A stretch of DNA of 64,000 nt, from the NCBI RefSeq assembly GCF_028583425.1, contig NC_072793.1:102285689-102349688 (forward strand), written 5' to 3'. The position numbers and the translations under genes were made by a program. Positions 1,698 through 59,660 of this stretch are shown here, in pieces (positions within the stretch are counted from its first letter, which is position 1; the number at the start of each line of letters is the position of its first letter). A model generated the notes under the pieces. It made no database searches, was not told the DNA's origin, and was given only the letters and a program-made list of their open reading frames with translations. This DNA comes from Eublepharis macularius. Its lineage: Eukaryota > Chordata > Lepidosauria > Squamata > Eublepharidae.

Positions 1698-2456
1698 TGT
1701 AATGATTCCAAGTAAATGTGTGCATGTGTCTTTAAATGCTTAGTTTGAGCTAGGTGAAGAGTGGGGGTGAGAGAGGGAAGAGTGAGTGATGTGATTGGTT
1801 GATGACTGAGAGTGTGGGCGGAGTGAATGCAGTTTAGTCTGACAGTGCAGAGAGAAAGGTTTCAGTCAGAAGAAAGCAGGCTAGCTGTGTGCTGCCTGAG
1901 TATACTGAAGTATTTATGACAGAAATATAACCTGGGTGGAACCTGAACTGAGCATGTTTGTGAAAGGACACTCAGTCAGGGAAAGAGAGGCCAGCTGTGT
2001 GCTGCCTGAGCAGGTTTAATATTTTTGTGAATGGGAGTCAGAGAAAGAGGGGCTAGCTGTGTGCTGCCTATATTTGAAGTATTTGTGAGAGAACTATTGA
2101 GTCTAGTGAAGGAGGCTAACTGTGTGTGAAGCCTTAGAAGAGATCTGTGTGAATGAGTTTATAGGAAGTAACTTTAAGAACTAAGAACTACTTTTATGAA
2201 ACTAATACGCTTCTTGAAAAATAAACATTTATTTTGTTTTGTTATATCCCCGTGTAGCTGTCGTTGCTATATCCCATTCATATCCTCAGGGCCACATAGA
2301 ACCACGAAGGAGCCTGACGCTTAAACACGTTACCAAAGGGGAAATTTGAATAAAATATTTTGGAATAATATATTCCTGGTGGCAGCAAACTACCCAGAGG
2401 GTGTAAGGGGAAGATTAAAAGGAAAATCTACCCCAAAGAAAGTACATGTCATAACA
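1698..2456 (+). repeat. First LTR of tandem element
   Basis: 759 bp with TG...CA ends. A motif close to CTAGCTGTGTGCTGCCT recurs near 1881, 1991 and 2053, with a degenerate fourth copy near 2114, like repeated enhancer units. AATAAA at 2220-2225 is a plausible LTR poly(A) signal. I saw no difference from the middle LTR. Confidence 0.9.
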
Positions 2457-2458
2457 AG

Positions 2459-2478
2459 TGGAGGCATAGCGGTGGGAT
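2459..2478 (+). promoter_or_regulatory. Probable primer binding site
   Basis: Two bases after the LTR end comes TGGAGGCATAGCGGTGGGAT, beginning with the TGG that pairs with a tRNA CCA end. The first eight bases fit a tRNA ending TGCCTCCA, as some threonine tRNAs do; beyond that the match is imperfect. The tRNA identity is a guess. The equivalent site of the second unit is 6471-6490. Confidence 0.55.
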
Positions 2479-2511
2479 CTCAAACATCCTGAGGAGAAGA
2501 AAATATTTTAA

Positions 2512-2748
2512 GTGGGATATAATAGCCTGGGAGGAGGGAATATTCTGAGAGAAGGCATTCTGAGGGGACAGATAGCCAAAGAGACAGAGTGTTCAGTTAA
2601 ATCCTATGAGGAATATAGAACTGTTATAAAGGAAAGACACAGAAGAACTAGTAGGATTTATAAGAGTGAACATAATCTGGTGAAGTTTAGTAAAATTGTA
2701 GAAGGAATTACAAGTAAGAGAGAGAAATGGCAGAGTTTATGGGGATGA
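2512..2748 (+). CDS. Small leader ORF in retroelement, uncertain
   Basis: A 78-codon frame, basic and rich in K, R and E, lies between the primer binding site and gag and overlaps the gag start by about 20 bases in another frame. It resembles no family I know and may be non-coding leader. An identical copy lies at 6524-6760, but since the two units are duplicates this does not show selection. Confidence 0.25.
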   Translation: MGYNSLGGGNILREGILRGQIAKETECSVKSYEEYRTVIKERHRRTSRIYKSEHNLVKFSKIVEGITSKREKWQSLWG

Positions 2749-3419
2749 AAAAGGAGGCTCTGATTCAGAAATGCAGTGAGTTAAATTTACTTCATGAGGG
2801 GAAAAGTGTAGAAGAACTGAGAGTTATACTAATACAAAGCAGTGTGGAGCCTAGGAGTACTGCATCTGAGAGAAACCGTGAGGGAATGTATAATCCTAGT
2901 CCAGAATATTTAGAGTTTCTAAGAGAAAAAAACCAGTTTGAGAAGGAAAAGTTGAAAGTTGATGCAGAACAAAAACAGTTTGAATGGGAAAAGCTGAAAG
3001 TTGATGCAGAACAAAAACAGTTTGAGAGGGAAAAGTGGAAAGCTGAAATGGAACTTAGAGTTCAAGAGATGGAAAGACACACCAGTTTGGAAGCAGAAAG
3101 ATTACAATTAGAAAGAGAGAGACTTAAGAATGGGGACAAAAAGGAGGGAAACTCTGAACCCAGAGCTGATTTACCTCGAGTTACCCCAAAAGATTTTATG
3201 GTGTATGTGTCAGGAGAAGATCCACAAATTTTCCTGTCCACTTTTGAGCGATCTGTTCAGAACTGGGAAATACCAGAGACACAATATATGAAGTATTTAC
3301 CCAGCTTAATTAGAGGGGAATTGGCTGAGATCTACAACACATTTCCCTCAGTTAAACCTGTTGTTTATGCTGAATACAAAGAGGCAGTATATGACAGATT
3401 TAGGCTAGGTGCTGATTAG
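2727..3419 (+). CDS. Gag, N-terminal part (unit 1)
   Basis: 230 codons from ATG to an in-frame TAG. Residues about 65-135 form a highly charged helix with a near-exact internal duplication around KLKVDAEQKQFE, likely a coiled coil. The C-terminal part (about 150-230) resembles the N-terminal capsid region of Ty3/gypsy Gags, with aromatic and leucine-rich helices. The TAG at 3417-3419 interrupts the capsid just before the SCAN-like C-terminal domain, and the frame continues open after it. Ty3/gypsy Gag normally runs through in one frame, so this stop is either a mutation or a readthrough site. Confidence 0.75.
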   Translation: MAEFMGMKKEALIQKCSELNLLHEGKSVEELRVILIQSSVEPRSTASERNREGMYNPSPEYLEFLREKNQFEKEKLKVDAEQKQFEWEKLKVDAEQKQFEREKWKAEMELRVQEMERHTSLEAERLQLERERLKNGDKKEGNSEPRADLPRVTPKDFMVYVSGEDPQIFLSTFERSVQNWEIPETQYMKYLPSLIRGELAEIYNTFPSVKPVVYAEYKEAVYDRFRLGAD

Positions 3420-4961
3420 TTCAGAAAGAAGTTTAGAAGCCTAGTGCCTCAGAAAGAGAAGTCATTTAAGTCTTTTAGTGCCAAACTGACAGACTATTTT
3501 GATAAATGGATTTCATCTGCCAAAGCTAACTCTAAAGAGGGAATAAGGGATTTAATGATTTTGGATCAGTTTTTATTTCAACTTCCTTCAGAGATCAGAC
3601 TTCTGGTTAAAAATAAACTTCCAGAGAATATCAACCAAGCATCAGAGTGGGCAGATAGATTAACACTTAATAGAGGAGGATGGGATTGCCGTGAAAAGAA
3701 AGACTATTCTTATAAACCAGAGTTTAAATCAAGTAAAGGACAAGAGGGAGAAAAGAAAGGAACATATGAGAGAGCTGAGATGATAAAAAGTCGGGATAAA
3801 AATATAGAAAGAAACCAAGATGGATACTGGAATGATAGAAGATGTTTTGTATGTGGTCTGAAAGGGCATTTAGCTTACAAATGTCTAAAGAACCAACCCA
3901 AGCAAACAACGCTTGAGCATGTAAGGAGGGTCACTGGAACTGACTCAGATGATCAGAGTGATGAAGATGATAGAAACTCCAAAAGCTCAACAAACACAAA
4001 TGAAACACCCAGTAAGAACACTGCCTTACACATAAACACTGAAGAAACAGTCTACTTGTGTGGGGTAAAGACAGATAAGGTTGCTCAGGGTACTGAACTG
4101 AGAGAGGTGGTACAAATAAATGGGAGAGATACTTTAGCCATTCTAGACACAGGAGCCTCAGTAACACTGGTCAGGGAGGATTTTGTTGATAAGAAAAACC
4201 TGATTCCAGATAAACAGATATCCTTGCAAGATGTGTGGGGAAATTCTAAAAGAGTGCCACTAGCACGGCTAAAAATTAACTGGAGAGGAAAGGAAGAATA
4301 TTTTCCTGTAGCAGTTATTAAAGAACAGAAAATACCAGTAGTATTGGGAAGAGATGTAATGGGAGCAAAGGCAAGAATTCAAATACGCACTGACTCTAAT
4401 GATTTGCTACAAGTTGAAGCCAGGGGAGCAGAAGACAAGCCCCTAGGTATCCTAGCAACAGACACAATTGATACATTGCAGGAGGGAAAAAGAAAGAGAC
4501 AAACTCCTGTTAGTATTACTGCTGAAATGTCCCAAGAAAAAGGAAGAGGCATAAATAAAAACCCTGAGGAGTTTAAAAAAGAAATTATGAAGGATCCTGA
4601 GTTAAAGGACGTAAGAGAGGAGGCCAGGCAGAATGAGATGAATGCAGAAACAAACATTTTTGCATGGGGAAATGAGTTGTTACAGAAAAGGGTTACTAAC
4701 CTAAAGCTAATTTGTGAAAAAATAGATACGTCAGAGCAAGAAAACTCTTATCTGGATATAGAAAATAGAATGCCGAAAAAGACTCTAACTAGCCAGAGAA
4801 ACCTCAGATTTCAACTAGAGTCCTTAGAGAAACAGAATACACAAATTGATGAAGAGAATTTAGAACTCAGAACAGTTGAATCTTTGAAGAGTATGAACCT
4901 CAAGATGACTCAGTTACAATTAGAAAACAAAGAACTAGAAAGTGAGAAACAACAGCTTTAG
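3420..4961 (+). CDS. Gag C-terminal, zinc knuckle and retropepsin (unit 1)
   Basis: This frame is continuous with the Gag frame after the TAG and has no ATG at its beginning (the first usable Met lies in the SCAN-like helix), so it probably belonged to one Gag-Pro polyprotein. In order it shows a SCAN-like capsid C-terminal domain (MILDQFLFQLPSEIR), a CCHC knuckle (C-x2-C-x4-H-x4-C, bases about 3844-3885), an acidic/Ser-Asn linker, and an aspartic protease with DTGAS near 4147 and the C-terminal VVLGRD near 4342. The last 100 or so residues are predicted coiled coil. It ends at TAG 4959-4961, again followed by the same open frame. No RT follows. Confidence 0.8.
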   Translation, partial: FRKKFRSLVPQKEKSFKSFSAKLTDYFDKWISSAKANSKEGIRDLMILDQFLFQLPSEIRLLVKNKLPENINQASEWADRLTLNRGGWDCREKKDYSYKPEFKSSKGQEGEKKGTYERAEMIKSRDKNIERNQDGYWNDRRCFVCGLKGHLAYKCLKNQPKQTTLEHVRRVTGTDSDDQSDEDDRNSKSSTNTNETPSKNTALHINTEETVYLCGVKTDKVAQGTELREVVQINGRDTLAILDTGASVTLVREDFVDKKNLIPDKQISLQDVWGNSKRVPLARLKINWRGKEEYFPVAVIKEQKIPVVLGRDVMGAKARIQIRTDSNDLLQVEARGAEDKPLGILATDTIDTLQEGKRKRQTPVSITAEMSQEKGRGINKNPEEFKKEIMKDPELKDVREEARQNEMNAETNIFAWGNELLQKRVTNLKLICEKIDTSEQENSYLDIENRMPKKTLTSQRNLRFQLESLEKQNTQIDEENLELRTVESLKSMNLKMTQLQLENKELESEKQQL

Positions 4962-4976
4962 AAAAGTCTAGAGCTT

Positions 4977-5489
4977 ATGAAAACCTCTTTTAAGAAGGCT
5001 AAACATTTAGAAGTCAGTCACCAAAGTTTGGATATAGAAAACCAAAGGCTGCAGAAAGTCCTAGAAAACAGCAACAAAAAAATGCAGCATTTAGAAATGG
5101 TGATTTATTTTGCCGTTATTGCCTTTTTAATTGTCTTTCTACTAACGTACAGAAGCTATCAGTCAATTAGAAACAGACTTTATGTTGGAGGAGAGAAGCA
5201 ACTTGATAGTAAAGTTGCTGAACTGATTGAAGACAAATGGAAAGTACTAGAAAAGCTCAGCATGTGCAAAAAACAGTATAAAGAGTTAGGAAACGTCTTG
5301 AAGGATGCTAGCCTTTTAAATGAGTCACCCAGTGCATCAAACATGAAGAGAGCATGTAAAGAACTGAGCTCAAACCCTGTTCGCAAGAAAGAAATAGACT
5401 GTTTAGGAAAGAACAGAATATTGATAGAGAAACAACCAGAAGAAGCAAACAACGACCTAGTAGAGAAGGCCAAAGCCGAGATGACCTGA
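4977..5489 (+). CDS. MIA2/cTAGE5-like coiled coil and membrane protein, captured fragment (unit 1)
   Basis: 170 codons from ATG, in frame with Gag-Pro. Residues 1-40 are coiled coil, 41-58 a hydrophobic membrane segment (MVIYFAVIAFLIVFLLTY), and 59-170 a charged coiled coil. From the membrane segment on it resembles host MIA2/cTAGE5 of the TANGO1 family, which organises ER exit sites: an aromatic/RS stretch, then RNRLYVGGEKQL, then LIEDKWKVLEKLS, and a distal CKEL...KEIDCLGK block. These follow one another with the spacing I remember for the host protein. It is not a known retroviral product, so capture of host sequence is the best explanation. A general coiled-coil resemblance remains possible for residues 1-40. 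The frame ends at TGA 5487-5489. Confidence 0.65.
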   Translation: MKTSFKKAKHLEVSHQSLDIENQRLQKVLENSNKKMQHLEMVIYFAVIAFLIVFLLTYRSYQSIRNRLYVGGEKQLDSKVAELIEDKWKVLEKLSMCKKQYKELGNVLKDASLLNESPSASNMKRACKELSSNPVRKKEIDCLGKNRILIEKQPEEANNDLVEKAKAEMT

Positions 5490-5688
5490 GCCCAGCAGTG
5501 GAGCATCCCAGAGAGCGAGATGACACCCCAGTAGAGGAGGAACGCAAGTTAAAGAAACCCAAGTCTTTAAACCAAAAACCACAGAAGAGTGAGAAGTGGA
5601 CTTAACTGGAACTGCAGAGACAATAAAACATTCCCTAAGCCGGAGAAAGCTGCACACAACTCTTCTAAAAAAGAGATGTGTTCCGCTT

Positions 5689-5709
5689 AAGGAGAAGGGC
5701 GGGGGGATT
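5689..5709 (+). promoter_or_regulatory. Polypurine tract of unit 1
   Basis: A purine run (AAGGAGAAGGGCGGGGGGA followed by TT) directly precedes the middle LTR, as expected for the plus-strand primer. The same tract precedes the third LTR at 9727-9747. Confidence 0.8.
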
Positions 5710-6468
5710 TGTAATGATTCCAAGTAAATGTGTGCATGTGTCTTTAAATGCTTAGTTTGAGCTAGGTGAAGAGTGGGGGTGAGAGAGGGAAGAGTGAGTG
5801 ATGTGATTGGTTGATGACTGAGAGTGTGGGCGGAGTGAATGCAGTTTAGTCTGACAGTGCAGAGAGAAAGGTTTCAGTCAGAAGAAAGCAGGCTAGCTGT
5901 GTGCTGCCTGAGTATACTGAAGTATTTATGACAGAAATATAACCTGGGTGGAACCTGAACTGAGCATGTTTGTGAAAGGACACTCAGTCAGGGAAAGAGA
6001 GGCCAGCTGTGTGCTGCCTGAGCAGGTTTAATATTTTTGTGAATGGGAGTCAGAGAAAGAGGGGCTAGCTGTGTGCTGCCTATATTTGAAGTATTTGTGA
6101 GAGAACTATTGAGTCTAGTGAAGGAGGCTAACTGTGTGTGAAGCCTTAGAAGAGATCTGTGTGAATGAGTTTATAGGAAGTAACTTTAAGAACTAAGAAC
6201 TACTTTTATGAAACTAATACGCTTCTTGAAAAATAAACATTTATTTTGTTTTGTTATATCCCCGTGTAGCTGTCGTTGCTATATCCCATTCATATCCTCA
6301 GGGCCACATAGAACCACGAAGGAGCCTGACGCTTAAACACGTTACCAAAGGGGAAATTTGAATAAAATATTTTGGAATAATATATTCCTGGTGGCAGCAA
6401 ACTACCCAGAGGGTGTAAGGGGAAGATTAAAAGGAAAATCTACCCCAAAGAAAGTACATGTCATAACA
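5710..6468 (+). repeat. Middle LTR of tandem element
   Basis: 759 bp, with no difference from the first LTR that I noticed. It has no target-site duplication of its own and serves both as 3' LTR of unit 1 and 5' LTR of unit 2. The AATAAA is at 6232-6237. Confidence 0.9.
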
Positions 6469-6738
6469 AGTGGAGGCATAGCGGTGGGATCTCAAACATC
6501 CTGAGGAGAAGAAAATATTTTAAGTGGGATATAATAGCCTGGGAGGAGGGAATATTCTGAGAGAAGGCATTCTGAGGGGACAGATAGCCAAAGAGACAGA
6601 GTGTTCAGTTAAATCCTATGAGGAATATAGAACTGTTATAAAGGAAAGACACAGAAGAACTAGTAGGATTTATAAGAGTGAACATAATCTGGTGAAGTTT
6701 AGTAAAATTGTAGAAGGAATTACAAGTAAGAGAGAGAA

Positions 6739-7431
6739 ATGGCAGAGTTTATGGGGATGAAAAAGGAGGCTCTGATTCAGAAATGCAGTGAGTTAAATTT
6801 ACTTCATGAGGGGAAAAGTGTAGAAGAACTGAGAGTTATACTAATACAAAGCAGTGTGGAGCCTAGGAGTACTGCATCTGAGAGAAACCGTGAGGGAATG
6901 TATAATCCTAGTCCAGAATATTTAGAGTTTCTAAGAGAAAAAAACCAGTTTGAGAAGGAAAAGTTGAAAGTTGATGCAGAACAAAAACAGTTTGAATGGG
7001 AAAAGCTGAAAGTTGATGCAGAACAAAAACAGTTTGAGAGGGAAAAGTGGAAAGCTGAAATGGAACTTAGAGTTCAAGAGATGGAAAGACACACCAGTTT
7101 GGAAGCAGAAAGATTACAATTAGAAAGAGAGAGACTTAAGAATGGGGACAAAAAGGAGGGAAACTCTGAACCCAGAGCTGATTTACCTCGAGTTACCCCA
7201 AAAGATTTTATGGTGTATGTGTCAGGAGAAGATCCACAAATTTTCCTGTCCACTTTTGAGCGATCTGTTCAGAACTGGGAAATACCAGAGACACAATATA
7301 TGAAGTATTTACCCAGCTTAATTAGAGGGGAATTGGCTGAGATCTACAACACATTTCCCTCAGTTAAACCTGTTGTTTATGCTGAATACAAAGAGGCAGT
7401 ATATGACAGATTTAGGCTAGGTGCTGATTAG
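6739..7431 (+). CDS. Gag, N-terminal part (unit 2)
   Basis: The translation is identical to the unit 1 Gag N-terminal frame, including the in-frame TAG at 7429-7431. The identity points to very recent duplication. Confidence 0.75.
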   Translation: MAEFMGMKKEALIQKCSELNLLHEGKSVEELRVILIQSSVEPRSTASERNREGMYNPSPEYLEFLREKNQFEKEKLKVDAEQKQFEWEKLKVDAEQKQFEREKWKAEMELRVQEMERHTSLEAERLQLERERLKNGDKKEGNSEPRADLPRVTPKDFMVYVSGEDPQIFLSTFERSVQNWEIPETQYMKYLPSLIRGELAEIYNTFPSVKPVVYAEYKEAVYDRFRLGAD

Positions 7432-8973
7432 TTCAGAAAGAAGTTTAGAAGCCTAGTGCCTCAGAAAGAGAAGTCATTTAAGTCTTTTAGTGCCAAACTG
7501 ACAGACTATTTTGATAAATGGATTTCATCTGCCAAAGCTAACTCTAAAGAGGGAATAAGGGATTTAATGATTTTGGATCAGTTTTTATTTCAACTTCCTT
7601 CAGAGATCAGACTTCTGGTTAAAAATAAACTTCCAGAGAATATCAACCAAGCATCAGAGTGGGCAGATAGATTAACACTTAATAGAGGAGGATGGGATTG
7701 CCGTGAAAAGAAAGACTATTCTTATAAACCAGAGTTTAAATCAAGTAAAGGACAAGAGGGAGAAAAGAAAGGAACATATGAGAGAGCTGAGATGATAAAA
7801 AGTCGGGATAAAAATATAGAAAGAAACCAAGATGGATACTGGAATGATAGAAGATGTTTTGTATGTGGTCTGAAAGGGCATTTAGCTTACAAATGTCTAA
7901 AGAACCAACCCAAGCAAACAACGCTTGAGCATGTAAGGAGGGTCACTGGAACTGACTCAGATGATCAGAGTGATGAAGATGATAGAAACTCCAAAAGCTC
8001 AACAAACACAAATGAAACACCCAGTAAGAACACTGCCTTACACATAAACACTGAAGAAACAGTCTACTTGTGTGGGGTAAAGACAGATAAGGTTGCTCAG
8101 GGTACTGAACTGAGAGAGGTGGTACAAATAAATGGGAGAGATACTTTAGCCATTCTAGACACAGGAGCCTCAGTAACACTGGTCAGGGAGGATTTTGTTG
8201 ATAAGAAAAACCTGATTCCAGATAAACAGATATCCTTGCAAGATGTGTGGGGAAATTCTAAAAGAGTGCCACTAGCACGGCTAAAAATTAACTGGAGAGG
8301 AAAGGAAGAATATTTTCCTGTAGCAGTTATTAAAGAACAGAAAATACCAGTAGTATTGGGAAGAGATGTAATGGGAGCAAAGGCAAGAATTCAAATACGC
8401 ACTGACTCTAATGATTTGCTACAAGTTGAAGCCAGGGGAGCAGAAGACAAGCCCCTAGGTATCCTAGCAACAGACACAATTGATACATTGCAGGAGGGAA
8501 AAAGAAAGAGACAAACTCCTGTTAGTATTACTGCTGAAATGTCCCAAGAAAAAGGAAGAGGCATAAATAAAAACCCTGAGGAGTTTAAAAAAGAAATTAT
8601 GAAGGATCCTGAGTTAAAGGACGTAAGAGAGGAGGCCAGGCAGAATGAGATGAATGCAGAAACAAACATTTTTGCATGGGGAAATGAGTTGTTACAGAAA
8701 AGGGTTACTAACCTAAAGCTAATTTGTGAAAAAATAGATACGTCAGAGCAAGAAAACTCTTATCTGGATATAGAAAATAGAATGCCGAAAAAGACTCTAA
8801 CTAGCCAGAGAAACCTCAGATTTCAACTAGAGTCCTTAGAGAAACAGAATACACAAATTGATGAAGAGAATTTAGAACTCAGAACAGTTGAATCTTTGAA
8901 GAGTATGAACCTCAAGATGACTCAGTTACAATTAGAAAACAAAGAACTAGAAAGTGAGAAACAACAGCTTTAG
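7432..8973 (+). CDS. Gag C-terminal, zinc knuckle and retropepsin (unit 2)
   Basis: Identical in translation to the unit 1 frame: SCAN-like helix, CCHC knuckle (about 7856-7897), protease DTGAS (about 8159), VVLGRD and the terminal coiled coil. The second in-frame TAG is at 8971-8973. Confidence 0.8.
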   Translation, partial: FRKKFRSLVPQKEKSFKSFSAKLTDYFDKWISSAKANSKEGIRDLMILDQFLFQLPSEIRLLVKNKLPENINQASEWADRLTLNRGGWDCREKKDYSYKPEFKSSKGQEGEKKGTYERAEMIKSRDKNIERNQDGYWNDRRCFVCGLKGHLAYKCLKNQPKQTTLEHVRRVTGTDSDDQSDEDDRNSKSSTNTNETPSKNTALHINTEETVYLCGVKTDKVAQGTELREVVQINGRDTLAILDTGASVTLVREDFVDKKNLIPDKQISLQDVWGNSKRVPLARLKINWRGKEEYFPVAVIKEQKIPVVLGRDVMGAKARIQIRTDSNDLLQVEARGAEDKPLGILATDTIDTLQEGKRKRQTPVSITAEMSQEKGRGINKNPEEFKKEIMKDPELKDVREEARQNEMNAETNIFAWGNELLQKRVTNLKLICEKIDTSEQENSYLDIENRMPKKTLTSQRNLRFQLESLEKQNTQIDEENLELRTVESLKSMNLKMTQLQLENKELESEKQQL

Positions 8974-8988
8974 AAAAGTCTAGAGCTT

Positions 8989-9396
8989 ATGAAAACCTCT
9001 TTTAAGAAGGCTAAACATTTAGAAGTCAGTCACCAAAGTTTGGATATAGAAAACCAAAGGCTGCAGAAAGTCCTAGAAAACAGCAACAAAAAAATGCAGC
9101 ATTTAGAAATGGTGATTTATTTTGCCGTTATTGCCTTTTTAATTGTCTTTCTACTAACGTACAGAAGCTATCAGTCAATTAGAAACAGACTTTATGTTGG
9201 AGGAGAGAAGCAACTTGATAGTAAAGTTGCTGAACTGATTGAAGACAAATGGAAAGTACTAGAAAAGCTCAGCATGTGCAAAAAACAGTATAAAGAGTTA
9301 GGAAACTTCTTGAAGGATGCTAGCCTTTTAAATGAGTCACCCAGTGCATCAAACATGAAGAGAGCATGTAAAGAACTGTTCGCAAGAAAGAAATAG
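8989..9396 (+). pseudogene. MIA2/cTAGE5-like fragment, truncated copy (unit 2)
   Basis: Matches the unit 1 copy through the coiled coil and membrane segment, then has one Val-to-Phe change near codon 107. A 13-bp deletion (after about 9378, against 5367-5379) shifts the frame, so the product ends after 135 residues with the distal block lost. Downstream, a 39-bp segment around 9476-9514 is present in an extra tandem copy, and several substitutions follow up to the third LTR. Confidence 0.7.
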
Positions 9397-9747
9397 ACTG
9401 TTTAGGAAAGAACAGAATATTGGCAGAGAAACAACCAGAAGAAGCAAACAACAACCTAGTAGAGAAGGCCAAAGCTGAGATAACCTCAGCCCAGCAGTGG
9501 AACATCCCAGAGAGCGAGATGACCTCAGCCCAGCAGTGGAGCATCCCAGAGAGGAAGATGACACCCCAGCAGAGGAGGAACGCAAGTTAAAGAAACCCAA
9601 GACTTTAAACCAAAAACCACAGAAGAGTGAGAGGTGGACTTAACTGGAACTGCAGAGACAATAAAACATTCCCTAAGCCGGAGAAAGCTGCACACAACTC
9701 TTCTGAAAAAGAGATGTGTTCCGCTTAAGGAGAAGGGCGGGGGGATT

Positions 9748-10507
9748 TGTAATGATTCCAAGTAAATGTGTGCATGTGTCTTTAAATGCTTAGTTTGAGC
9801 TAGGTGAAGAGTGGGGGTGAGAGAGGGAAGAGTGAGTGATGTGATTGGTTGATGACTGAGAGTGTGGGCGGAGTGAATGCAGTTTAGTCTGACAGTGCAG
9901 AGAGAAAGGTTTCAGTCAGAAGAAAGCAGGCTAGCTGTGTGCTGCCTGAGTATACTGAAGTATTTATGACAGAAATATAACCTGTGTGGAACCTGAACTG
10001 AGCATGTTTGTGAAAGGACACTCAGTCAGGGAAAGAGAGGCCAGCTGTGTGCTGCCTGAGCAGGTTTAATATTTTTGTGAATGGGAGTCAGAGAAAGAGG
10101 GGCTAGCTGTGTGCTGCCTATATTTGAAGTATTTGTGAGAGAACTATTGAGTCTAGTGAAGGAGGCTAACTGTGTGTGAAGCCTTAGAAGAGATCTGTGT
10201 GAATGAGTTTATAGGAAGTAACTTTAAGAACTAAGAACTACTTTTATGAAACCAATACGCTTCTTGAAAAATAAACATTTTGTTTTGTTTTGTTATATCC
10301 CCGTGTAGCTGTCATTGCTATATCCCATTCATATCCTCAGGGCCACATAGAACCACGAAGGAGCCTGACGCTTAAACACGTTACCAAAGGGGAAAGTTGA
10401 ATAAAATATTTTGGAATAATATATTCCTGGTGGCAGCAAACTACCCAGAGGGTGTAAGGGGAAGATTAAAAGAAAAATCTACCCCAAAGAAAGTACAGGT
10501 CATAACA
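9748..10507 (+). repeat. Third LTR of tandem element
   Basis: 760 bp, followed directly by the GTCCC target duplication (10508-10512). It differs from the first two LTRs at about seven positions, for example CCTGTGTGG for CCTGGGTGG, GTCATTGC for GTCGTTGC, and a changed T-rich run near 10277. Confidence 0.9.
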
Positions 10508-10512
10508 GTCCC

Positions 10513-41041: not shown

Positions 41042-44000
41042 CTATGGAAACAAGACAATGATTGTGCTGTCCTACTAAACAGTGACTGGCAGTCTTCGTG
41101 AGAGAGATGAAGTTTGATCTTACCTATTAAGTAGCTAAGCTTTGATGCTCTCTTCACAGGTCTGGCATAGTCTCTTACATACTAAGAAAAGCCAAGCCCT
41201 TCATCTAGTTAGATGTAGTTACAAACTCACTAGGCCCTGAACATGCCCTCCCTCCCCTGCTCCCTCAGACTGACCCCCTTTTCTAAATCCTTACAGAGTG
41301 CAAAAGCCACATAACACTTTCCAATAGATCAGTCAGATAATCACAGAACCTGCCCTGAACTTTAGCCAGTAAGGTAAGATGCAACACAAGAAGCTTTGCT
41401 GTTATCGTTCTTATCCATGGGGCAATTAGCATCATTATCAACAGATAATGTTTTCCATTGGCTCTACACATTTAATACCGTGAGAAAAGTAGAATTCTCA
41501 ACGGTAAGAAGATATATTTTAGCATACAGTTAGTACCAATGAACTAGAATGTAGGAATTACAACAAACCATCCTTTGAACGATGAATCTCAGAACTATTC
41601 CCATTTAATCATCAGAACCATGATATGTGAAACAATGACCAGTCATCAAAGTCTATTGTGGAAAGGAGACTGAGCTTCTGCTATCTTCGTTTTAAATAAA
41701 ACTGTTAGCTATACCTGTATGGGTCAGTTTTGTTTTCTTCAAGAAAGCGCCTGACCACTTGGGCCACATCTTCATTGGACAGAACATCCCAAAGTCCATC
41801 AGTTGCCATAATGAGGACATCATCTTCCTTAATATTTTGTACCATCAAGTCAAAAATTTCCACCTAGCCAGAATTAATGAAAGACATGAGTTCTTCTTAG
41901 TCATCCTTCCCAAACCATCAGGTACCTGCAATTTCTGTAGGAGGGATTAAAGACTTTATCCTATTGTGGACTCGTATCCACAATAGGATATGAGGGCTGT
42001 CTAATCTGGAGAGCCGGGTTTGATTGCCCACTCCTCCACTTGAAGCCAGCTGGGTGACCTTGGGATAGTCAGTTCTCTGGAGCTCTCTCAGCCCCACCCA
42101 CCTCACAGGGTGTTTTGTTGTGGGCAGGGGTCATTTTGTAGAAAAAGAGCTGCAGGAACTCTAGCATATGCCACACCCCTTGATCAGGCTGAAATAGCCG
42201 GGATTTGGCTGCTGCCAGACGGGGGAGTGTTCCCCCACCTGGCAGTGGCCCGATCAGAGACCTTTTGGCCCCAATCCAGGCCGAAACAGACCCAAAATGG
42301 CTCGAAATGGCCATTTTGGGCATGTTTTGGCCTGGATCTGGCCCCAAATGGCCCAGATCGGGTCAGTGCTGGGCAGGGGAGGGGTCCCCCACCAGGCACC
42401 AACACAATCCTGGTGGTTTTGGTCCTGATCCTGGCCAAAACAGGCCCCAAATGGCAAAAAACGGCCATTTGGGCCCGGATCAGGGCCAAAACAGCCAAGA
42501 GCAAGTCAGTGCCGGGCAGGGGAGGGTTCCCCCACCTGGCACCGACCCAATCCGGGCCGTTTTGGCCCAGATCTGGGCCTGAAAGGCCCAAAATGGCCAC
42601 TTTGGGCCATTTTCTGCTGGGTTTGGGGCCGAAATGGCTGGGATTGGGTCAGTGCCCCCTCCTGGCACCGACCCAGTCCCAGCCATTTCAGCTCTGATCC
42701 GGGCCGAAATGGGCCCCAAATGGCCATTTTCGGATGGTTTGGCCCCATTCTCACTGGGATCAGGGCTGGAACGGCCGGGATCGGGTCGGTGCCGGGCGGG
42801 GGAACCCTTCCCTTCCTGGCACTGACCCAATCCGGGCTGTTTTGGCCCTGATCCGGGCTCAAAAGGGCCCCTTTGGGCCCAGATCAGGGGCAAAACAAAT
42901 GGGTCCGGGTCACTGCCAGGCGGGGGAGGCTTCCCCCACCCAACACCGACCCGATCCGGGCCCATTCACCCCTGATCCAGGCCAAAATGGGCCCAAAATT
43001 GCCGGAAATGGCCATATATGTGGGTATAGAGTCTGACTGGACCTTTTTCAGTGCCTGGGTACCATTAGTGAAATACTCTGCCAGGCAAATTCACAATATG
43101 TATGAAATCTGAAAAATCTTAACATTGTCTCTTAGAATTAAAGTAAATAAAAAGCATTTAGTCTTTGAAGTAATAAAGACATGCAGGCAGCATCTTCCAG
43201 AAGTGCTAGCATTCAGGGAACAAAATTTCTCTGCTATGTAAGGTTACTGGTCCATCTTCATGGCCCAGTCAAACTCTATACCCACATATACTGCCTGTGC
43301 AGCTCATATATCAGTGTCTGCTGGGGGGGGGGGGGAATCAAGGTTTGCAAGTCATATGTGAGGCTCAGAATTAATATACAAATTAAGCACATTTATTGAT
43401 TTGCAGTGTTTTATTCTGAGCACAAAATATGAATACAAATACTCTTGCCTCTCTGCATTTGACTATAGGACACACAATGGATCCAAAATCAGAAAGTCAA
43501 GAGCTATGATCAAAACACAAACTCTGTATGCCAAAAATCCCCAAACCCAATCCCTAACACCTCTACAGCCAAGGGGTTCCAGGTTCTGGGAAAGACTTCT
43601 ACCTGAGACCCCAGAGAATAGCCGCCAACTAGAGCAGACTGGATGGCCCCAAAACCCAACACAGTATTTAGTGCCTTCAAATACTCAAGGTCAATCTTCC
43701 TTTGACTCCAGTTAGCAGTTGTGTAAATAACTTGTCCCATCGTTTCCCAGTTATTAAGAGCTACTCTCTTTGGCTCAGACCCAATGTGGTAGAATAGTGA
43801 CCCAGCAGAACTCTGGTGCAGCAGCACCCACGTTCTACTGATTTCCTACCTTGGGAAGACAGGAGAGGAAAGGCTTCACTTCAACAACTGTTTCAATTAC
43901 TTTCAACTGATGATCTCCCAGGCCTCGTGACACAGCCAGAGTGCCAAGTAACCGAGCCTAAAACCAATTGGAAAAAGGATGTGCCATCATGAAGAGCTGA

Positions 44001-55560: not shown

Positions 55561-56325
55561 CACGTATCAGTCTTCTGACCAAGGAGATCAGGAGTTTATT
55601 TATTACAGCTGTCTGGTGAAAGCCTTGTATCCTAGCCGAGAACCACTTAGTGTCTCTCGTTTTAAAATTATTAAAATTAATACCGTCCTTGAAGTGTTTA
55701 AGAAAACAAGAATCACAAATATACATGACATTTCCTATTCTGTCCAGTTAAAGTCATTGCAATTTCTAAGATTCTTCCCACAGTATTTGTGGAAAGATAA
55801 GATAGTCTCATGGAAATCTAGATCTCAGAAATTTGGAGATAGCAGTACGTAGCAAGTTTATATAAGCATAGTTATATTAGCCACACATGATTTTATTAAA
55901 CCATTTGATTTGCACCCTCAAAAGGTGTGATACAAGGTACTCTGAGCATACAATCATTCTTTCTCAAAGTTCTGTAGCAAACACAGTTCAATTAGTTCTG
56001 TATTTTTTTTCTGAGCATGAAGCCATTTATTCAGCGAACAACAATATAACAGATTCTTGCCAGTATGTGAGATTAATCTTTTATGAGTAAAACTCAGTGG
56101 AACAGTTAGGAAAAATGCATATTTGCAACTTTGCACAGAAACCAGGAGAAATGCTCAGGCCTACATATGCTAACATTCAAAATCATACATCTCATGAACC
56201 TTGAAGTCTGCAAATGCCCTTACTCCACGGCCAGAAAACAAAGGATGAAGAGTAGCAGTTCATGAAGCAGGAGGAAAAATGAAAATAAAAGTAAATCATC
56301 CAAAGAGCAAGAGAAAGCACAATAA
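55561..56325. other. Unassigned stretch upstream of PPM1M exon 2
   Basis: AT-rich; no gene or named repeat seen. Confidence 0.4.
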
Positions 56326-56444
56326 GAATAATCCTGCTGGATCAGACCAGGATCCTATATCACACAGTGGCCAACCAGTTACTCTGGAGGGCCAGCAACA
56401 GGGCATAGAAGCCACAGGCTTCCCCCGATGTTGTCTCCTGGCAG
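56326..56444 (+). repeat. CR1-like repeat, left flank of retroelement
   Basis: GAATAATCCTGCTGGATCAG, CACACAGTGGCCAACCAG and CCCCGATGTTGTCTCCTGG match the family at 23493-23970. The repeat resumes at 60797. Confidence 0.75.
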
Positions 56445-58036
56445 CAATTCGACCCCAGCTCCTCCCAGCTGCCACCCCAGTGCACCGCTGGATCCCAGTG
56501 ACAGATGTGATGGGCCGCACCCAGCCGTACCCTACGGCCCTAATCACGATAGAGTACCTAGGGGTCCGCCACCAAATGGAAGTTGCCCGGGTAGCCCACC
56601 TACCCGTGCCAGTGCTGCTGGGAAGAGACGCCCCGGGGTTCTTCAGGCTCCTCAAACAGGCAGCGGAGAAATTGGGAAGAGACGCCCCCGGGAATGCCGG
56701 GCTGCTGCTGGAGGCGGCAGGGGAATTGGCAGGCCCTCAAGTTGCCACCGCTCTGCAAGTGGAGGAGGCCAACAACCCGGGCGAGGGTCCCTCTGTCAGA
56801 CCAGGGGCAGAACCACAGGTTGAAGACCCAGCAGGACCCCCGGCAGACCGCCCATTCCGTGATGCCCAAGGGGCAGATGAGTCCTTGCAGCGCTTGCGAG
56901 AGACAGCCGCTCGTGAGGAGGAGCAGGTGCGGGATGAACGGAGGTCCCAGCGGCTCCCTCGCATCAAGAAGCAAGGAGGGGTTTGGGTTCGCATAGCTCG
57001 TGCCCCAAGTGGCCAGGGGGAGGTCCGCCAGCTATTGGTGCTGGCGGCCTACCGGGCCGAAGTCCTCTGCACGGCCCATGAGCATGCGTGGGCCGGGCAT
57101 CTGGGGCACCACAAGACCCTGAAGAAGATCCTTGAACAGTTCTTCTGGCCCTCCGTGAATGCAGATGTAAAGGCCCACTGCCGCTCGTGTCCCACCTGCC
57201 AGCGGGTGGCAGCCCGCCGCCCACCGAAGGCCCCCCTCTCCCCGCTACCCGTCATGGAGACACCCTTCCAACAGATCGCGATGGACTTCATTGGACCGCT
57301 GCCACGCACACCCCGGGGCCACCGCTTTGCCCTGGTGATTGTGGACTATGCCACGCGGTTCCCCGAGGTCATCCCGCTGAAGACCATGCAGACCCCGGGG
57401 GTGGTCCGGGCCCTGTCCAAGTTTTTCGTGATGGTGGGGCTGCCAGATGAAATCCTGACGGATCGAGGGGGCCCGTTCTGAGCCACAGTCATGCGCCAAC
57501 TCTGCCGGAATTTGGGGATCCGGCAGGTGTTCACCTTGGCTTACCACCCTCAAACAGATGGTTTGGCAGAGCGGCTGAACCAGACTGTCAAGGAGGCCCT
57601 GAAAAAGATGACACGGGACAAGCCTCACCAGTGGGACCTGTACATCGACCTGCTCATGTTTGCCCTCAGGGAGACCCCGCAGGCCTCCACTGGCTTCAGC
57701 CCATTCGAGCTGCTATATGGGCGCAAGCCACGAGGGATGCTCTCCTGGCTGACAGAATGCTGGGGGCCCCAGGCCAGCAGCCCTGCGCCCACCCCACAGG
57801 AGTACTTGAGCCAGCTCCATGATCGGGTGCAACATTCCCAAGCCGAGGCGAACCGCAGACTGACTCGCACCCAGGCGAAGCAGAAAGCCGCCTACGACCG
57901 GGGTGCACGGATGAGGACTTTCCAGGCTGGAGAGAAGGTCCTGGTGCACCACTCGGTATTTCCCAGAGAGGGAGGGGACCCCTCTTGGAATTGGCCCCTA
58001 CCCAATTCAGAGGGTGCTGGGCCCCACTACCTATGA
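56445..58036 (+). pseudogene. Protease end and integrase, Gmr1-like
   Basis: The frame opens with a retropepsin tail (PVPVLLGRD near 56605) and a Pro/Glu-rich linker, then an integrase: zinc-binding HEHAWAGHLGHHKT...CRSCPTCQ (about 57079-57204), first catalytic Asp in QQIAMDFIGPLP (about 57271), second in ILTDRGGPF (about 57454), and Glu in DGLAERLNQ (about 57557). TGA at 57479-57481 breaks the core just after the second Asp; the same frame continues. After about 57980 the frame shifts. Confidence 0.85.
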
Positions 58037-58781
58037 AGTCCAGTGCGGGGTCGGCCGACGTCGGCGGAAGACCCTGCATGTGAACCTCCTGAAGCAGTGG
58101 CACGAGCACCCCGAAGAGGAATGTGGCATAGCTGAGGACCCATTGGAGCTTCCTGACAGTGAGCTGCCGTGGACCTCCAAAGCCCCGGAGTTTGAGGCGC
58201 CCAAGGTGGACCCCCAGCTTGATCCAGCTCAACGGGCCCAGCTACAGGACCTCTGCGCATGGGTTCCCGGGGTCTTCTCCCGCAGGCCGGGCAGCACCAG
58301 CCTGATTCAACATGCCATCCCAACCAGCCCGGGGCAGACAGCCCGGGCTACCTGGTGCCCCATCCCCAGGAAGTGGTAGGAGGCAGTGGAGAAGGAGACA
58401 AACGAGATGCTCCGGCTGGGTGTAATCGAACCCTCACGGAGTGCCTGGAGGAGCCCGATAGTCCTGGTGCCCAAGCCAGATGGGACCACCCGGTTTTGCA
58501 TTGACTATCGCGAACTGAATAAGGTGGCCCAGTTCGATGCCTACCCCATGCCCCGAGCAGACGTGCTGGTGGACCACCTGGGCTCCGCCCGCTACCTGTC
58601 GGCCCTGGACTTAACAAAGGGCTACTGGCAGGTGCCCGTACGGCCGGAGGACCAGGAAAAGACGTCCTTTGCCACCCCCCAAGGCCTCTTCCAATTCAAG
58701 AAGATGCCGTTTGGCCTGCATGGGGCTGCGGCCACCTTTCAGCGGCTGGTGGACCAGGTGCTGGGAGAGTGCCGGGCGTAG
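58014..58781 (+). pseudogene. Integrase C-terminal module and reverse transcriptase, first part
   Basis: After the frameshift, VLGPTTYEVQCG-like and KTLHVNLLKQWHEH sequence is the GPY/F-type end of integrase. RT begins after TAG 58377-58379 and shows VIEPSRSAWRSPIVLV, FCIDYRELN, ALDLTKGYWQVP and KMPFGLHGAAATFQR. TAG at 58779-58781 cuts the frame just before the catalytic motif. Confidence 0.85.
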
Positions 58782-58784
58782 GCC

Positions 58785-59660
58785 ATGGCGTACATTGATG
58801 ATATTATTATCTTCAGCCCCGACTGGCCCACCCACCTCCAACACCTGGAAGCCGTCTTAAGGGCCCTCCAACGAGCTGGGCTAAGGGCGAACCCAAAAAA
58901 GAGCCACCTGGGGTTCCAGGAACTCCAATACCTGGGCTTCGTGGTCGGGGGAGGACAAGTCAGGCCACCACCAGACAAGGTGGCCTCAATAGCCGACGCC
59001 CCACAGACCAAGACCAAGAAGCAGGTTCGGCGATTCCTAGGACTGCTGGGGTATAATGGGCGGTTCATCCCCCACTTTGCCTCCCAAGCGGCGCCCCTGA
59101 CGGACAGCTTAAGGAAGGGGCTGCCCAACCAAGTCCGGTGGACCCCAGAACTAGAGGCAGCTTTCAAAGACCTGCGGTCCGCCCTCTCTAACGCCACTGC
59201 CCTGTGGAACCCGGACTTTGACCGGCCCTTCACACTGGCCACAGATGCTTCGGACACCGGCCTCGGGGCTGTGCTGACCCAGGAACGTGATGGAGCAGAC
59301 GTCCCGATTCTCTTCCTGAGTCGGAAGCTACAGCCCGCCGAGAAACGCTATGCCACGGTGGAGCGGGAGGCCCTAGCGGTCAAGTGGGCGGTGGGGGCCC
59401 TGCAGTACTACCTGGCCAACAACCCCTTTATACTGCTGATGGACCATGCACCCCTGCAGTGGCTCCATCGCATGAAGGCGCACAACCCCAGGGTGCTACG
59501 CTGGTACCTCTCCCTTCTACCCTTCCAATTTACCATCAAATACCACCGGGGGGCACGGCATGTGGACACGGACTATATGTCCCGCATGTTTGAGACTGAG
59601 CCGGACCCCCACAACTCAAAGCCAAGCGGGGGGGTGTGTGTGTGTGTGTCCAGGGTCTGA
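58785..59660 (+). pseudogene. Reverse transcriptase end and RNase H, Gmr1-like
   Basis: Same frame after the TAG: catalytic YIDDIIIFS at about 58791, thumb with PKKSHLGFQELQYLGF, then RNase H with TDASDTGLGAVLTQ, YATVEREALAVKWA and MDHAPLQWL, ending near the polypurine tract. Confidence 0.88.

Follow-up and report, generated by a model that had tools for sequence, protein, structure and literature searches.

That LTR elements can take up host genes is well established for plants and for retroviruses. The avian leukaemia virus E26, which has the structure gag-myb-ets, is probably the nearest parallel to the element of the gecko Eublepharis macularius analysed here; in both, Gag is in frame with pieces of two unlinked host mRNAs, pol has been replaced and a helper is needed or would be needed, whereas E26 is a retrovirus with an oncogenic cargo and the gecko element is a heritable Ty3/gypsy element that carries pieces of structural proteins and is present in many copies. 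Regarding reptiles, capture of host mRNA by crocodile endogenous retroviruses is reported, of nectin3 by CrocERV31 and of KIT-ligand by CrocERV29 (PMC4299795). These too are LTR elements that took up host mRNA and spread in the genome of a reptile; however, they are retroviruses with one captured gene each, nectin3 replacing env and KIT-ligand lying between pol and env, and purifying selection is reported for their captured open reading frames, which is not clearly seen in the gecko cargo (PMC4299795). In maize, 425 LTR retrotransposons with host gene fragments have been described, and it is reported that, under the conditions used by the authors, none contained fragments of more than one standard nuclear gene per element, while the gecko element has two (PMC2774510). 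Template switches between unrelated packaged RNAs are described for LTR elements of plants (PMC13317346). A SCAN domain is reported from Gmr elements alone (PMC4131045) and has been linked to a Gmr1-like capsid (PMC3406341); the gecko element resembles Gmr1-like elements in having SCAN in Gag and an RNase H remnant at the end of pol, beside the tail of the coding region, and differs from them in having two host gene pieces instead of integrase, reverse transcriptase (RT) and half of RNase H. None of the literature matches listed names the gecko element in its title or at the start of its abstract, repeat libraries such as Repbase being outside the scope of that search, and among the matches listed none concerns a gypsy family of vertebrates in which two host genes are in frame with Gag and the fusion has left many descendants.

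The window, a stretch of 64,000 nucleotides of the E. macularius genome, contains at positions 1698-10507 a single insertion with the structure LTR-unit-LTR-unit-LTR, bounded at both outer flanks by the sequence GTCCC (1693-1697 on the 5' side and 10508-10512 on the 3' side), which was read directly as the target-site duplication. In each unit a Gag of the SCAN type is followed by a CCHC knuckle, a protease and, at the place of pol, the host gene pieces, and all parts between the duplications are on the forward strand. LTR 1 (1698-2456; 759 nt, TG...CA) is 100% identical to LTR 2 (5710-6468) and 98.9% identical to LTR 3 (9748-10507); the second internal unit spans 6469-9747. In the first unit, gag with its SCAN domain (PF02023, E=2.2e-14) occupies 2727-3872, the frame being broken by a stop at 3417-3419. 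A motif read from the translation at 3840-3885 (approximate coordinates), which we take to be the CCHC zinc knuckle, had no match in Pfam. The aspartic protease, with a DTG motif, lies at 4110-4361 and was matched by PF13975, PF13650 and PF00077 (E 4e-6 to 7e-5), the first slightly below its curated cut-off and the other two above theirs. A link between protease and cargo (4521-4669), found in 19 of the 20 mapped loci (L020 being without it), is probably the N-terminal part of an integrase. It is followed by a segment of Girdin/CCDC88A coiled coil (4670-5097, with a stop at 4959-4961), a segment of MIA2/cTAGE5 with the membrane stretch and the start of the coiled coil (5094 to about 5410), the tail, i.e., the end of the coding region of the element, with its frame shifted after a second deletion (5411-5604), and a polypurine tract, read by eye, directly 5' of LTR 2 (5688-5707). 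The tail also has a tandem 39-bp (13-residue) repeat, at 5485-5604 in the window, the copy number of which varies (also seen in L009, L013, L014, L019, L020, and L037).

TG...CA LTRs, a polypurine tract and a 5-bp target-site duplication are features of the Ty3/gypsy type, and the SCAN-type capsid in Gag is a Gmr1-like feature. A search for relatives of Gag with the 513-residue Gag-Pro-Girdin frame of the window, covering 7243 candidates in the length range, found none, the sole match being a girdin-like bat protein with a HOOK domain. In the second unit, Girdin lies at about 8682-9109 and MIA2 starts at about 9106 (placed by the 4012-base offset between the units); a 13-base gap near 9379 breaks the cargo frame, and a stop is found at 9394-9396. 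The two units are identical over the first 2834 internal bases, as LTR 1 and LTR 2 are over all 759 bases, while 11 mismatches and 52 gap positions fall across the last 420-446 bases. The confinement of these differences to the end of the units, within one pair of target-site duplications, suggests a later exchange with another copy. Elsewhere in the window, at 42044-42965, both strands have overlapping open frames in which motifs rich in proline and glycine recur, possibly as a tandem repeat.

The first-pass annotation had placed a captured MIA2/cTAGE5-like membrane and coiled-coil segment at 4977-5489, in the frame after Gag-Pro where pol should be. This stretch translates as described and follows Gag and protease with no RT seen between, and the homology to MIA2 is real, although only for its middle part, as the first approximately 40 codons are the end of the Girdin segment and the sequence after about position 5410 is the tail of the element. 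Protein searches with the later peptide of the cargo returned 42 proteins at E<=1e-3, 41 of which are named MIA2/cTAGE5 or MIA SH3 domain ER export factor 2, the remaining one being an unnamed turtle protein. The top five MIA2 matches are all from geckos (two isoforms of Eublepharis, and one each of Gekko, Heteronotia, and Sphaerodactylus); the match to Eublepharis MIA2 has E=5.7e-37 and 76% identity with 71% of the query covered, well beyond a generic coiled coil, and in the pairwise protein alignment 71 of 94 positions match. MIA3, considered as a source, is named in none of the 42 matches. Searches of the cargo against Pfam and PDB sequences gave weak, unrelated matches only.

At the DNA level, positions 5094-5366 are 89.0% identical to MIA2 exons of the same genome, where the host gene is located on contig C2 at about 46.89-46.92 Mb. 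These host exons agree at 100% with the E. macularius protein in the two stretches that align without running over into introns. Five of them (72, 22, 89, 72, and 111 bases, where the length of the first is taken from the Girdin join onwards and the last is only partly used) are fused in the element, with all four boundaries falling precisely on splice junctions, as 5094-5165, 5166-5187, 5188-5276, 5277-5348, and 5349 to about 5410 (partial). The MIA2 piece, which begins within an exon, thus derives from a spliced mRNA.

The preceding half of the cargo is derived from a second gene, CCDC88A (girdin), which the first reading had missed. Residues 60-292 of the translated stretch matched 1839 proteins at E<=1e-3; among the best 120 of these 1839, all names are girdin, GRDN, CCDC88A or uninformative, and geckos are on top. 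Gecko girdin matches the cargo with E=3.9e-34 and 82% identity in the protein search, and 118 of 158 positions match in the pairwise protein alignment. The source in the E. macularius genome is one large exon at C1:212730735 on the minus strand (88.4% DNA identity over 428 bases), and, since the piece lies within this single exon, splicing cannot be judged for Girdin. A paralogue at C2:33160903, presumably CCDC88C, was rejected as the source, with about 65% (65.5%) identity over 194 bases compared with 88.4% over 428 for CCDC88A. Both cargo genes therefore have their host loci elsewhere in the same genome, MIA2 on C2 and CCDC88A on C1, with the MIA2 copy spliced. The join between the two pieces falls inside coding exons of both genes, at the sequence GAAA (5094-5097), which both genes have in common there.

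In a tree of 23 MIA2 rows, all nine cargo sequences form one clade (100/98), sister to Eublepharis MIA2 (99/94) and within geckos (100/96). The proposed capture of the membrane and coiled-coil segment is supported by database homology, exact splice joins, phylogeny and the many dispersed copies of the element. Within this clade L039 branches first, followed by L035 (88/75). In a tree of 25 girdin rows, all ten cargo sequences are on one side of a branch (99/98); they cannot be placed among geckos owing to the high conservation of the host gene. The simplest account is a single capture in the eublepharid line, in which the two genes may have been acquired jointly or successively.

Regarding copies of the element, a six-frame search of the 2.24-Gb genome (72 contigs) with the peptide reported by the first-pass annotation, in which 150 of 289 candidates were scored, listed at least 150 matches, some places being represented by two rows. 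Where a listed match extends over 135 residues or more (78 cases), the frame is free of stops in 56, interrupted by one to three stops in 18 and by four or more in the other four. Twenty larger loci, picked for a high score and a long frame, have the mapped order LTR, leader, gag, protease, link, Girdin, MIA2, tail, LTR, although several are truncated (L020 and L022 are without gag, and several are without one LTR). Girdin and MIA2 are present in all 20 and likewise in L029 and L030 (22 of 22), in the same order. The query spanned the Girdin/MIA2 join, and the co-occurrence in 20 of 20 loci is therefore no independent test; a query of MIA2 sequence beyond the cargo of the window gave seven non-host places, and five of the six examined have Girdin directly upstream, while in the sixth (L038) Girdin was not seen in the stretch examined. 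In four of the 20 loci (L009-L012), one frame of 897-1030 codons comprises at least part of Gag, the protease, Girdin and the membrane stretch. L030 has an internal deletion in MIA2, and in L029 the MIA2 sequence is left after 63 bases and unrelated sequence follows; four matches resemble L029 in ending at about residue 68 (C1:5.05, 5.93, and 6.62 Mb, and C20:0.33 Mb).

LTR pairs were found in 11 of the 22 loci, with 91.3-98.7% identity in ten of them (two over shorter alignments), while the pair of L018, aligned only in part, has 80%. Exact 5-bp duplications flank eight of these eleven (L009, L010, L011, L012, L014, L019, L027, and L030), the duplication in L023 has one mismatch, and the LTRs of L018 and L026 are only partial. 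The target-site duplications at different loci indicate separate integrations. In L027 the cargo element sits, on the opposite strand, between the integrase and the RT of another, related element. On C10, at 92.15-92.61 Mb, eight short matches to query residues 117-170 are spaced at about 40-150 kb, and probably represent a segmental array carrying a fragment of an element.

What the cargo displaced can be read from six further loci (L034-L039), picked for a longer MIA2 match. In five of these (L034, L035, L036, L037, and L039), MIA2 reaches about residue 225 of the gecko protein and is followed by a peptide of the type NYS-VQKECLGIVWALNKLRSY, with an early end in L035. Pfam searches of L039 and L037 identified RNase H (PF17917, E=3.3e-18 and 1.6e-16) starting at profile position 46 or 44 of 105, and tblastn with the RNase H of another element matched L036, L037, L038, and L039 and gave no match in L034 and L035. 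The tail comes next after the RNase H-side sequence in L034, L036, L037, and L039, and no integrase was seen after RNase H in these four. The classical Ty3 order, with integrase after RNase H, was thus not seen in the older copies, and the lack of integrase 3' of RNase H fits an order of integrase before RT, which is the hallmark of Gmr1. A second gypsy-type element in the window, at 56249-59660, has the Gmr1-type order of integrase, RT and RNase H, its frame being broken at several places. Neither RT nor integrase was found inside the mapped cargo copies by tblastn with the integrase, RT and RNase H of this second element against 28 loci; the RT was matched only in L025 and L027, in both cases outside the mapped cargo element.

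The simplest reading of this arrangement is that the cargo replaced one block, from early integrase to the middle of RNase H, in an element whose pol had integrase ahead of RT, and the loss of integrase, RT and half of RNase H implies movement in trans. In the younger copies, MIA2 breaks off at about residue 173 and is succeeded by the tail, which is in a different frame. The sequence GAAC seems to flank this second deletion on both sides, the MIA2 side being read from the bases of host and window and the RNase H side being deduced from two reading frames of L037, with one base differing in L039.

Gag is under purifying selection. Under GY+F3X4, omega was estimated, without a test against omega 1, at 0.33 for Gag CA (18 rows), 0.51 for PR (17 rows), 1.02 for Girdin (21 rows), and 0.66 for MIA2 (21 rows), while spectrum-matched pair counts, for which codons with stops were filtered out beforehand, gave 0.48 for Gag CA, 0.72 for PR, 1.02 for Girdin, 0.94 for MIA2, and 0.99 for NC; the last value indicates that the spectrum-matched count misses constraint at some places where it is expected. 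The purifying selection that the first reading suggested testing for is clear in Gag and is not clear in the cargo, the GY estimate for MIA2 leaving room for weak constraint there. Loci with at least 35% gaps were left out of the copies-only selection sets; at a threshold of at least 40% gaps, the Girdin rows excluded were L036 and L037 and the MIA2 rows excluded were L029 and L030, and L038 is in neither set. Measured against the host, with the host's own branch thus included, NG86 ratios were 0.24-0.75 for Girdin and 0.38-1.11 for MIA2, and as out-of-frame dN/dS controls were uneven (NG86, 0.34 to 1.31), raw NG86 values were not relied on and the spectrum-matched count and GY with kappa were used; MG runs with kappa fixed at 1 were set aside.

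The cargo was also compared with a null model that starts at the host sequence and keeps the types of mutation (26 Girdin and 26 MIA2 rows, mutually related, selected by protein match and including the constrained branch of the host). Amino-acid changes in the cargo are about neutral relative to this null. In all 26 Girdin rows they fall short of the null mean, by 0.6 to 8.8, a shortfall to which stops contribute because the null counts them as changes, and new prolines are fewer than the null mean in 24 of the 26; in MIA2, changes reach or exceed the null mean in 19 of 26 rows, there is no depletion of prolines, and in 24 of the 26 rows the membrane stretch is less hydrophobic than the null mean. 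Constraint on MIA2 as a sequence of the ER-export type was accordingly not found. Stops are below the null mean in all 52 comparisons, with a lowest single-row P of 0.09. The aligned cargo preserves its net reading frame at all of the 22 loci, compared with 18 of 21 for PR, 14 of 20 for Gag CA, 12 of 20 for the tail and 8 of 22 for the LTR, and the MIA2 stretch as aligned is free of indels at all 22 (two of them with a partial alignment). Because Gag CA, the most constrained part, stays in frame less regularly than the cargo does, the figure of 22 of 22 must owe much to the picking of loci by cargo match, and with this sampling the evidence for maintenance of an open frame is weak.

These results bear on several explanations. 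Similarity by chance or of a generic coiled-coil kind, with which the weak and unrelated Pfam and PDB matches would agree, has next to no probability and is ruled out by E-values of 4e-34 and 6e-37 to single protein families, DNA identity of 88-89% to host exons and the exact splice joins. Regarding the route of capture, a Girdin-MIA2 retrogene made earlier by LINE activity might have been taken up at the DNA level rather than by template switching in a particle. Spliced MIA2 exons are compatible with both routes, and a join inside coding exons of both genes with a shared stretch of 4 nt is what a template switch predicts; this is not decisive, and we regard the retrogene route as unlikely.

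A different set of explanations concerns the cargo itself. It might be a working part of the fusion protein, with the Girdin coiled coil serving assembly and MIA2 anchoring Gag at ER exit sites. Such a role would suit the four of 20 loci in which the frame stays open from Gag through protease and Girdin into the membrane stretch, the indel-free MIA2 stretch, and the numbers of stops and, for Girdin, of amino-acid changes and new prolines, which in most or all rows do not reach the neutral mean; however, the MIA2 rows show neither reduced change, nor proline depletion, nor preserved hydrophobicity, omega of Girdin is near 1, a long Gag ahead of the membrane stretch would probably flip its natural orientation, and the sampling favours open copies, which makes this role improbable. 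The anchoring of Gag at ER membranes, which the first-pass annotation had offered as speculation, finds no support in the near-neutral change of MIA2 and the unpreserved membrane hydrophobicity. Alternatively, the frame may matter and not the sequence, stops leading to a long untranslated 3' end and so to nonsense-mediated decay. Near-neutral amino-acid change alongside few stops would be expected under this explanation, and the net frame is kept in the cargo more regularly than in LTR and tail, but the copies were picked by cargo protein match, Gag CA itself keeps its frame in only 14 of 20 loci, the 22 of 22 may be mostly sampling, and stops occur in 22 of the 78 longer matches (135 residues or more) that were listed; the explanation is thus doubtful. 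It is about equally doubtful that the new Gag-Pro-Girdin-MIA2 polyprotein is used, through membrane or coiled-coil association or as a long open frame, and allowed the element to outspread its pol-bearing parent.

The reading we prefer, with a probability of roughly 0.8, is that of a Gmr1-like Ty3/gypsy family which, in a eublepharid gecko, is non-autonomous, captured pieces of two genes, moved in trans and carries its cargo as a passenger. In the ancestor, reverse transcription would have fused Gag and protease, with the start of integrase, to CCDC88A mRNA, to spliced MIA2 mRNA and to the second half of RNase H, probably by template switching between co-packaged RNAs, with the loss of integrase, RT and half of RNase H. 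The chimera may then have been mobilised by the enzymes of an intact relative, its own Gag and protease remaining under selection, and a later deletion would have removed the end of MIA2 and RNase H and given rise to the younger subfamilies, the copy in the window among them. The cargo would most likely be a passenger that fills the space of the lost pol, lengthens the Gag-Pro frame and drifts in sequence approximately neutrally; the deficits of stops (52 of 52), Girdin changes (26 of 26) and Girdin prolines (24 of 26) relative to the null speak against a passenger, but come from related rows picked by protein match and include the host's constrained branch. The presence of intermediate stages in one genome, with a longer MIA2 and half of RNase H followed by the deletion, makes the steps of the capture readable in order, and the many copies make it possible to test whether a captured sequence is a passenger or a tool.
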